Source: a virus
Length of the DNA stretch: 32,288 nucleotides
Direction: 5' to 3' (one strand)
Virus record (IMG/VR): IMGVR_UViG_3300005513_000015
Span: 1-32,288 of that record
Shown: positions 22,901-25,109 of the stretch, piece by piece
Position numbering within the stretch: the first letter of the stretch is position 1
Layout of the letters: each line of letters begins with the position of its first letter
The notes under the pieces: generated by a model
Databases searched by the model: none
What the model was told of the DNA's origin: nothing
The model's input: only the letters and a program-made list of their open reading frames with translations
Position numbers and translations under genes: made by a program

Positions 22901-23821
22901 ATGAATAACGTTGCTGGCATTTATGCCATTACCAGCGCGTCTGGGAAGCAATACGTAGGCTCGGCGGTTAATATCAGAAGAAGGTGGCATGTCCATCTTC
23001 ATCACCTTCGAGCAGGGTCGCACCATAACCCGCATCTGCAATCGGCATTTAAAAAGCATGGCGAGTCAGGGTTGCGGTTTGAGATCCTGTTGATCTGCGG
23101 AAAGCCTGATTTGCTCATGTATGAGCAGCTAGCTATTGATTGCTTGGTGCCGGGCTACAACATCTGCAAGACTGCGGGCAGTCATCTCGGCATGAAACGC
23201 CCTGAGGCGACATGCCACAAGATTTCTGCTGCCTTGACTGGCAGAAAGATGTCCGCGGCTGCCAGGGCGGCTATGAGGGCGATCCGGGATACTCCGGAGT
23301 GGCGGGAGAAAGCATCTGCCATTCGCAAAGGAAAGTCGCCGACGACCGAGGCGATAGCGAGGTCCGCGCAAGCAAGGCGGGGGAAACCTCTATCTGCCGA
23401 AACCAAAGCAATCTTGTCCGCCAAGAGCACACTGTTTGGTCAATCTCCCGATGAGCGGCGCAGGAGGTCTGAACGGCTGAAGAACCGGGTTGTGACTGCA
23501 GAGACGCGCGCTAAGTTGTCCGCAGCCCGCATGGGCAAGCGCCTGTCAGATGATCACAGGGCGAAGTTATCGGCGGCGATGAACGCTCGATCACCAGAAG
23601 CTAGGGCCCAAGCCGCTGCAGCATCATTCGCAGCAAGGGCAAAGCCCGTCAGAATCGTTGATACCGGCAAGGTGTTTGAATCGCTGGTGCATGCGGTGAT
23701 CTGGCTGAAAGACTCGGGAATATCAAAGGCTACGTCTTCATACCTGAGCCATGTGTGCGCCGGGCGCAGGAAAAGCGCTTACGGATACAGATGGGAATTC
23801 GTGGAGCGAGAGGCGACATGA
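22901..23821 (+). CDS. GIY-YIG homing-type endonuclease with NUMOD3 repeats, 306 aa
   Basis: Catalytic GIY-YIG domain: GIY (6-8), YVG (18-20), Arg26 in NIRRRW, Glu75 in YEQ, and GYNI (85-88). Then four or five Ser/Lys/Ala-rich repeats of the NUMOD3 type (HKISAALTGRKMS, ARRGKPLSAETKAILS, TRAKLSAARMGKRLSDDHRA), a DNA-binding array. A C-terminal NUMOD1/HTH-like part follows (VFESLVHAVIWLKDSG). AAGG lies upstream of ATG 22901. It is a free-standing mobile gene lodged between small late genes and the large RNA candidate. Target unknown. Confidence 0.93.
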   Translation: MNNVAGIYAITSASGKQYVGSAVNIRRRWHVHLHHLRAGSHHNPHLQSAFKKHGESGLRFEILLICGKPDLLMYEQLAIDCLVPGYNICKTAGSHLGMKRPEATCHKISAALTGRKMSAAARAAMRAIRDTPEWREKASAIRKGKSPTTEAIARSAQARRGKPLSAETKAILSAKSTLFGQSPDERRRRSERLKNRVVTAETRAKLSAARMGKRLSDDHRAKLSAAMNARSPEARAQAAAASFAARAKPVRIVDTGKVFESLVHAVIWLKDSGISKATSSYLSHVCAGRRKSAYGYRWEFVEREAT

Positions 23822-23970: not shown

Positions 23971-24014
23971 TCGACGGCCGGCAGTGTTGCGATCCGATGG
24001 ATAAACTTGATTGA
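23886..24014 (+). CDS. Possible overlapping Cys-rich micro-protein, 42 aa
   Basis: In another frame than the 50-aa gene: MRPHPYRLLGVADRRLRAVR, then CWWCARELIDGRQCCDPMDK. CxxC and CC could bind zinc, and a CWWC...CC pattern is not what chance usually gives, but there is no ribosome site and it overlaps the 50-aa frame heavily. It may instead be the 5' border of the large RNA. Confidence 0.3.
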   Translation: MRPHPYRLLGVADRRLRAVRCWWCARELIDGRQCCDPMDKLD

Positions 24015-24880
24015 GGTGTGACATGGACATTCGTCCGCGCAGGGACAATCTTCCCAAGCCATGATCCCCGCTTCGCCGCCAACTACGGTCGGCGTAGCAG
24101 TTTGATACGGGCGGCGGAGCCCTTTCGCGCATGACGCTTTGGCTTCGGGAGCTACCGGGGTGGGCCAACAAGGCGTCAGTCGTGAGAGCAAATTGGTTCG
24201 ATATCGTTATGTCGATATCGCTTTCACGCATGACGATTGCGGTGGTGCAGGGCACGGTTGCGACAGATTGATCATCTGTTTGCGCCGGTAAGCGAACCTT
24301 ATGCTGCGCGCAGTCGTCAGCCGTGAGAGTGAATGCGCAGGCTGATGCGCCCAACCCTGCCCCGGAGCCGGGGAAGTGCAAGAGAACCGGACGTGCCGGA
24401 GATCAGCGCCGGCCACTCTCAACGAAATCGGTCTGGGCTGTTTGCCCCTTAGTGGCACGAGGAAAGCACCAACACAGACGCCGCATAATCGTAAGCGGCA
24501 AGAACATGCCGGGAGCAGAGACCGGACAAGCGGGTGTCTGCCGCCCGATTGGGCTCGCATGAGCTATCAAGGCAGTTCTTAACCTCGTTCGGTGCGAACT
24601 GGTCAATCGCCGTAGAGCCTCACGAAACGAGGCCCTTCATGCAGGCGCATTCAGCGCGGACAAAGCAAGCCATAGCCTTCTGCGACAACGCGGTGGGTAG
24701 ATCCGGCCGGATTTGGGACTGCTCCGGGAGTGCGCCGCCACGAAGGTGAAATTAGCGACGCGCCTGGCGATAGCCACCTGCGGGTCACGCGGTCTGCGAC
24801 AAAGTAGCTTTCATCCAATTCTCCTCGCGTCGACTCCCCCTTCGACGTCTGCCGGCGCCGAAAGGCTGCTGGCTTTTTTA
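24015..24880 (+). ncRNA. Candidate giant structured RNA of the late region (about 865 nt)
   Basis: No convincing gene on either strand. Plus-strand pairing: CGTCA/TGACG (24174-24178, 24231-24235) around CGTGAGAGC/GCTTTCACG (24181-24189, 24220-24228) and CGATATCG pairs (24199-24220); ACAGAT/ATCTGT (24263-24279); an 8-bp long-range stem, TGAGAGTG/CACTCTCA (24324-24331, 24414-24421), enclosing GCGCA/TGCGC and CCCCG/CGGGG hairpins; an 8-bp stem (24475-24482 with 24533-24540) around a GCCGC/GCGGC hairpin (24480-24499); CAGTTC/GAACTG (24573-24601); GCCTC/GAGGC (24617-24633); TGGC-GATA-GCCA (24765-24776); CGTCGA/TCGACG (24828-24847); and a 3' terminator. A 20-nt element at 24174 recurs at 24315 (17 of 20 identical). 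Its size, late phage position and multibranch form resemble GOLLD/ROOL RNAs, not verified. The 5' end is uncertain. Confidence 0.75.
24851..24879 (+). terminator. Intrinsic terminator at the 3' end of the large late RNA
   Basis: GCCGGC-GCC-GAAA-GGC-T-GCTGGC (one G-U pair, one bulge) followed by TTTTTT (24874-24879). The GAAA loop fixes the plus strand. It lies only 14 bases before the next gene, so late genes beyond it need read-through, fitting Q-type antitermination. Confidence 0.85.
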
Positions 24881-24893
24881 TTCTGGATCTCCG

Positions 24894-25109
24894 ATGGCAG
24901 CTCGCAAGACAGTCAAAGTCGTCGCTGAGCGCACGGAGATTTGCAAGGAATGTCGAGCTGTCCATTGCAGCCGGACCGAAGGCATGCGCTGCCGGCGCTA
25001 CCCGCCAGTGTTCGTCTATGACCCGGCCACCGGCGTATCAAGCGCTGAGTGGCCGGAAGTCAATCCGGACGACTGGTGCATTGAGTTCAAACCAAAATTG
25101 ACGTCTTAA
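24894..25109 (+). CDS. Conserved phage zinc-binding protein, 71 aa
   Basis: CKECRAVHCSR (about residues 17-27), MRCRRYPP (about 31-38) and WPEVNPDDWCIEF (about 53-65) give a four-cysteine site in the order seen in a common phage family (C..C...CRRYPP...WP.V...DWCGEF). No clear Shine-Dalgarno sequence precedes ATG 24894. It is the first gene beyond the large RNA terminator. Likely structural zinc; role unknown. Confidence 0.8.
   Translation: MAARKTVKVVAERTEICKECRAVHCSRTEGMRCRRYPPVFVYDPATGVSSAEWPEVNPDDWCIEFKPKLTS

Follow-up and report, generated by a model that had tools for sequence, protein, structure and literature searches.

Results

A gene-free, structured plus-strand segment lies in front of the packaging genes

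The window (the entire 32,288-nt stretch analysed) is a viral contig, in which a gene-free segment is flanked by a short ORF ending at 24014 and a 71-aa ORF starting at 24894. The 5' neighbour of this segment is a gene for a GIY-YIG/NUMOD3 homing endonuclease (22901-23821), and its 3' neighbours are the 71-aa ORF and genes for a phrog_704 exonuclease, the large terminase, the portal and Mu F-like functions. The ORFs that cross 24015-24893 have no match in Pfam or PHROGs, and no frame is consistently open across the cores described below; a coding gene across the segment was rejected on both counts. Comparison with shuffled sequences gives z = −3.6 for the plus-strand fold of 24015-24893, with no shuffle equalling it, and z = −1.8 for the minus-strand fold; the minimum-free-energy structure of the entire 879 nt is not regarded as the true fold. 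The fold reveals an intrinsic terminator near the 3' end that a simple terminator scan missed owing to a bulge. The results uphold the preliminary description of the segment as a structured plus-strand non-coding RNA, rather than a coding gene, with a GAAA-capped terminator of its own and a late-gene position in front of the terminase and portal genes. The parts of the segment are collected in Table 1.

Table 1. Features of the RNA array, in window coordinates
Feature	Position	Strand	Description	Basis
Phage non-coding RNA array	24015-24893	+	Preceding ORF end to next ORF start	No Pfam/PHROGs family; fold z −3.6
5' module	24068-24117	+	Stem CCGCUUCGCCGCC/GGGCGGCGG enclosing hairpin CUACG-GUCGG-CGUAG	94% identical in L052
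Degenerate first scaffold unit	24121-24220	+	A-A'-A order as in core	Sequence, coordinates
Strand A0 of degenerate unit	24121-24129	+		
P1a of degenerate unit	24130-24137 with 24172-24179	+		
Strand A'0 of degenerate unit	24181-24189	+		
GATATCG hairpin of degenerate unit	24199-24220	+		
Hairpin P1 of core	24220-24331	+	Strand A (24220-24228) complementary to A' (24322-24331); variable interior	
Conserved core	24320-24425	+		Covariance model R1, 81.2 bits
P2 closing stem, 5' strand	24324-24331	+	Pairs with 24414-24421	Covariation
Hairpin A	24335-24350	+	GCGC-AGGCUGAU-GCGC; D-arm position	Alignment
Variable cassette	24351-24394	+	44 nt; anticodon-arm position	125 insert clusters among 167 cores
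Hairpin B	24395-24413	+	GCCGG-AGAUCAGCG-CCGGC; T-arm position; loop complementary to loop A	
P2 closing stem, 3' strand	24414-24421	+		Covariation
Downstream module	24459-24540	+	GAGGAAAGCACC; closure 24475-24482 with 24533-24540; hairpin AUGCCGGGAGCAGAGACCGGAC at 24506-24527	
3' module	24739-24816	+	CACGAAGGUGAAA...GCUUUCAUCC	87.5% identical in L008
Intrinsic terminator	24851-24882	+	GAAA-capped, with U tract	Fold; segment conserved in L052, L443 and L009

The array contains a widespread core closed by a covarying stem

The starting point for comparison was a distant, 32-nt blastn match in Burkholderia phage CSP3, with a second matching piece nearby, in which stem changes from A-U to G-C occur on both sides. 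Pattern scans gave cores in IMG/VR and in named phages, and were followed by a covariance model, R1. A core comprises, in order, the closing stem P2, a short AAU linker, the 4-bp hairpin A, an insert, and the 5-bp hairpin B, which is directly stacked on P2. The family member that is conserved measures ~105 nt, or ~200 nt if hairpin P1 in front of it is counted.

P2 is 7-10 bp long in 150 of 167 cores. The sequences flanking hairpins A and B pair at 7.53 of 8 positions, with perfect pairing in 70% of cases, as compared to 9.3% with swapped partners, and with 47 different 5' strands; in this test hairpins A and B were set by sequence alone, so that it is free of pairing-based selection. In an alignment of 60 sequences (A2), selected partly by pairing, 95.6% of cells are paired and 15 pairs, including 9 of 9 in P2, show two-sided changes; none of 500 shuffles scores as high, and slid partners pair in 28-52% of cells. 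Hairpins A and B are near-invariant, in part by construction, cores having been found through a sequence scan for one or the other. Their loops are complementary, and the few changes in them are compensatory (GGUGAU/AUCACC in L125; ACUGA/UCAGU in L130 and L075). We conclude that the core has a P2 helix and complementary loops with some compensatory changes. The first of two long-range closures noted in the preliminary description coincides exactly with P2, the covarying stem of this widespread RNA; for the second, in the downstream module, pairing is possible and hairpins are enclosed, and homologues are few.

A blastn search with one core version matches, often partially, 1191 of 5426 complete E. 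coli genomes (about one-fifth). GTDB genomes contain 116 stretches with a core, almost all of them from gamma- and betaproteobacteria. The core is present in only 4 of 369 host genomes of the class, and we therefore regard it as a phage RNA, not a core-genome RNA. Lambda itself was considered as a carrier, and no core was found in it. The records inspected have no annotated RNA at the core itself; Rfam models give no match to the core group at model threshold, and every Rfam family was rejected for the window. Supplementary files (e.g. PMC8040213) apart, no description of the core was found in the literature, and a 20-mer of the core did not occur in the papers searched.

The core is tRNA-shaped and is associated with tRNA genes

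Four features of the core are those of a tRNA: a closing, acceptor-like stem of ~7 bp; a 4-bp arm after a short linker; a 5-bp arm that abuts the 3' strand of the acceptor; and, as the few compensatory changes indicate, loops in contact. The 5-bp arm does not carry a canonical T-loop, its loop being 9 nt long (AGAUCAGCR), and neither covariance models nor ARAGORN find a tRNA or tmRNA in the core. An N-CCA end is in register in 21 of 140 cores (15%; 2.7 expected), as compared to 141 of 152 phage tRNAs in the same material, and we therefore call the core tRNA-shaped and not a tRNA.

The cores keep company with tRNA genes. Eighteen of 166 have a tRNA no more than 200 nt away, against an expectation of 3.4, and all 24 that lie within 1 kb of one are on the same strand. 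Perfect T-arms outside called tRNAs number 23 in sense and 0 in antisense orientation within 400 nt of cores, against 7 in 1.35 Mb elsewhere, a 30-fold increase in density confined to the sense strand. The results show same-strand association of cores with tRNAs and enrichment of T-arms near cores. In L009, a relative syntenic with the window, a true tRNA-Thr stands immediately 5' of the shared terminator; P7 differs from a P1-like plasmid by a core inserted after tRNA-Thr; and a module, GAGGAAAGCYCCGG, stands 3' of tRNA genes in some phages and 3' of cores in others. Sense terminators occur within 200 nt of 34 of 165 cores, as compared to 8.4 for random windows. In VLCpiS13c and BUCT_49532 the genes 3' of the core are on the opposite strand, which, like the terminators, speaks for a stand-alone RNA.

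Two further loci have tRNA-related sequences near a core. Upstream of position 6370 in L188, a degenerate tRNA with a T-arm lies inside a long hairpin stem 5' of a core. In Bordetella phage PHB04 (L062, 1787-2028), a match to the permuted tmRNA model RF04321 (104.5 bits) follows three tRNAs, a few hundred bases 5' of a core.

Cassettes are diverse and are exchanged between stems

The insert between hairpins A and B ranges from about 20 to 166 nt and falls into 125 clusters among 167 cores. One 46-nt insert is present without a single difference in the P1-like frame UUGUGGUG of E. coli elements (L072, L075) and, in L043, in frame UGAGAGUG, and other near-identical inserts are likewise common to different stems or frames. 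The T-loop motif occurs in only 6 of 167 inserts. We conclude that cassettes are diverse and have been exchanged between stems. In L224 (3063-3148), ARAGORN calls a tRNA-Pro within the cassette of the core.

The locus is a mosaic, and an upstream strand competes with P2

Outside the core, the modules of the array recur in differing combinations. The 5' module is found with an altered inner hairpin in L009 and L004 (A3) and in L443. The hairpin of the downstream module is conserved in L008 and L441, and a related GAGGAAAGC module stands 3' of cores or tRNA genes elsewhere. A wider search for the 3' module of the window found it in the L008 contig only, which makes it lineage-specific; a stretch related to it lies 5' of the tRNA-Thr of L009. 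L052 has the 5' module, core and terminator and lacks most of the intervening parts, and L008 has the 3' part without the core; from these combinations, the locus is a mosaic. The preliminary description thus holds for the structured stretch, whereas a single RNA of ~865 nt is unproven: an array of RNA modules is the better description of the locus, those outside the core being mostly lineage-specific.

In many loci a strand A, upstream of the core, is complementary to A', the 5' strand of P2. A and A' form Watson-Crick runs of at least 8 in 40 of 154 loci and of at least 10 in 15, as compared to 4.0 and 0.1 with swapped A'; the Watson-Crick-only version of this A-A'-A test is clear, whereas a version allowing G-U separates poorly from controls. 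Strand A is absent from stem groups ATTGGA and GTGATC. Because strand A and the 3' strand of P2 both pair with A', hairpin P1 and stem P2 are mutually exclusive, in the manner of a folding switch. We conclude that an upstream strand competes with P2 in many loci.

Phage P1 links the core to STnc100, and other known RNAs differ

In phage P1, the ban operon, which is under C1 control, carries two elements between trnT and tciA. They are overlapped in antisense by ORFs plp and upl (L435, NC_005856, 1973-2542), of which plp also overlaps tRNA-Thr. These ORFs are probably not genes; CRISPRi of them leaves plaquing normal (PMC10695390). The second elements of P1 and P7 are matched by both R1 and STnc100 (RF02076), with nearly equal borders and the same layout, at RF02076 scores (33.4 bits for P1, 43 bits for P7) below the gathering cut-off of 47 bits; the window has no match to RF02076 up to E 10. 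STnc100 shares with the window group a closing stem (GGUG/CACC), an AAU linker, hairpin A, a middle part, and hairpin B abutting the stem. STnc100 and its relative PasD also share with it a position in the Q-to-lysis region of prophages and the use of different seeds on one frame (PMC13192938). However, the hairpin A and B sequences of STnc100 are unlike those of the window group, and the window group extends to virulent phages and to phages of betaproteobacteria, with exchange of entire cassettes. A second subtype, GGUGAAUGCGGCUAAGCGCACGCGG..., follows the P1 core (L435, 2576-2705), with a similar form at ~2640 in a Klebsiella phage (L065); this subtype forms a bridge to STnc100.

The resemblance to GOLLD (RF02032) and ROOL (RF03087), named in the preliminary description as possible relatives, is one of habitat and style: these are phage RNAs near tRNA islands, with loop-loop contacts and a variable linker that at times holds a tRNA (PMC12286853). 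However, the core is far smaller (~105 nt vs. 400-900 nt) and has tRNA topology, and neither covariance model matches the window, even at E 10, so that membership in either class is not borne out. tRNAs and the tRNA-like domain of tmRNA share with the core an acceptor-like stem of 7-10 bp followed by a short linker, arms of 4 and 5 bp, contact between the loops, an insert in place of the anticodon arm and some N-CCA ends; they differ in that the loops of the core are non-canonical, most cores lack CCA, and no tRNA or tmRNA model matches in the core. AgvB and AsxR, anti-sRNAs that likewise come from the Q-to-lysis (moron) region of prophages (PMC4104026), were rejected as the same RNA on size (51-60 nt), structure and Rfam family.

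T4 rnaC and rnaD (species 1 and 2) are also unexplained stable RNAs in a phage tRNA cluster, with an adjacent GIY-YIG homing endonuclease and, in rnaC, a T-arm, but hairpins A and B are, by eye, absent from the T4 sequence. In T4 rnaC (L444, 409-672), the T-arm is canonical, and CGAGGAAA...GUAAGCCGAGUAGC resembles the GAGGAAAGC...CGCAAGCCGG module that follows cores and tRNAs. The homing endonuclease of the window is encoded directly upstream of the RNA array, a placement comparable to that of SegB next to the tRNA, rnaC and rnaD genes of T4, and may be a driver of module exchange.

On these comparisons, the core appears to represent an undescribed RNA group that is widespread in phages of gamma- and betaproteobacteria and whose architecture is also that of STnc100, a family of prophage sRNAs. 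The preliminary description offered two alternatives, a new class or a known one in unusual hosts, and the answer falls in between. The nearest kind is prophage sRNA; what is new is the covarying scaffold, the cassette exchange, the tRNA setting and the breadth.

Discussion

A scaffold on which cargo is swapped is well supported. As to transcription, processing, partners and benefit of the RNA, we infer the following. The stretch would be one of the phage RNA transcription units in which relatives carry tRNA genes; here it would contain tRNA-shaped and other structured modules and probably be transcribed together with the lytic or late genes of the phage. In its rigid scaffold, P2 would be acceptor-like, hairpin A D-arm-like and hairpin B T-arm-like, with the loops pairing at the "elbow", and the scaffold would fold, protect and display the cassette. 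The cassette would be cargo, exchanged between phages through recombination in the invariant hairpin sequences, and would act in trans. Its likeliest role would be that of a base-pairing sRNA seed, which has been proposed for the relatives STnc100 and PasD; a tRNA-like decoy is the alternative. We consider the joint claim, that is, a tRNA-shaped scaffold together with exchangeable, trans-acting cargo, to be evenly poised between right and wrong. Against it, the N-CCA end is in register in only 21 of 140 cores, most of which are not tRNA-like at the 3' end, the 9-nt loop of hairpin B is not a canonical T-loop, and CRISPRi of plp and upl in phage P1 gives no plaque defect (PMC10695390). A broader proposal, which we put forward tentatively and consider somewhat less likely than not, is that a natural tRNA-shaped scaffold, distinct from tRNA, tmRNA, GOLLD and ROOL, is common to phages of gamma- and betaproteobacteria, that cargo RNAs are swapped into it where a tRNA has its anticodon arm, that it has spread via tRNA arrays as a platform for fast-changing anti-host or anti-defence RNAs, and that STnc100 and PasD are two domesticated examples.

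The main rival is a decoy or substitute for tRNAs, in which the array would counter tRNA-cleaving defences and the cassette would replace the anticodon region that the nucleases attack. The shape of the core, its location in tRNA arrays, the rapid turnover of cassettes and the dispensability of the phage P1 region in a laboratory host are all consistent with such a role, and phage tRNAs can defeat tRNA-cleaving defences (PMC13096335; see also PMC11555353); but most cassettes have no recognisable anticodon arm, no more than 6 of 167 inserts contain the T-loop motif, and CCA is missing from most cores. We think this reading unlikely. The A-A'-A order and the covarying upstream strand, with its excess of runs of at least 8 (40 of 154 loci vs. 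4.0 expected), could instead point to a cis-acting leader, that is, an attenuator or antiterminator of the next operon that switches as P1 and P2 compete for the strand they share, and in several phages the element does stand 5' of lysis or packaging genes. However, the element also stands between tRNA genes in phage P1 and upstream of ssb, opposite-strand genes lie downstream in VLCpiS13c and BUCT_49532, and the ATTGGA and GTGATC stem groups have no upstream strand; a cis-acting leader is in our judgement quite improbable.

An ornate, nanocage-type RNA like GOLLD or ROOL, in which loops A and B would kiss between molecules and enclose a variable linker, would share with the core the habitat of phages and tRNA islands, the kissing loops, and the linker, that of L224 holding a tRNA. 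We consider it very improbable. Against it stand the size of the core, ~105 nt and not 400-900 nt, the failure of the GOLLD and ROOL models to match, and the placement of hairpins A and B, both of which flank P2 in the manner of a three-way junction, an arrangement in favour of intramolecular pairing. Invariant hairpins around exchangeable cassettes, next to a homing endonuclease, would also be expected of a DNA-level recombination or mobility site with single-strand hairpins as in attC, the RNA structure being incidental. The boxes of attC are fixed in sequence, whereas the stems of the core change in every way, and the strict strand bias with tRNAs, the enrichment of sense terminators and the confinement of T-arms to the sense strand also argue against a DNA site, to which we give the least credence of all.

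The tRNA-shaped scaffold with exchangeable cargo provides one structural description for sequence left unannotated in P1, D3, P7, lambdoid prophages, Klebsiella and Burkholderia phages, and about one in five of the complete genomes of E. coli (1191 of 5426, with at least a partial match to one such element). It links this unannotated phage sequence to the poorly understood sRNAs STnc100 and PasD, and, because an invariant frame holds exchangeable cargo, it makes function testable. The core group looks like a shared carrier of fast-changing regulatory or decoy RNAs, and the findings suggest that phage tRNA arrays are home to many tRNA-like RNAs overlooked by tRNA finders.
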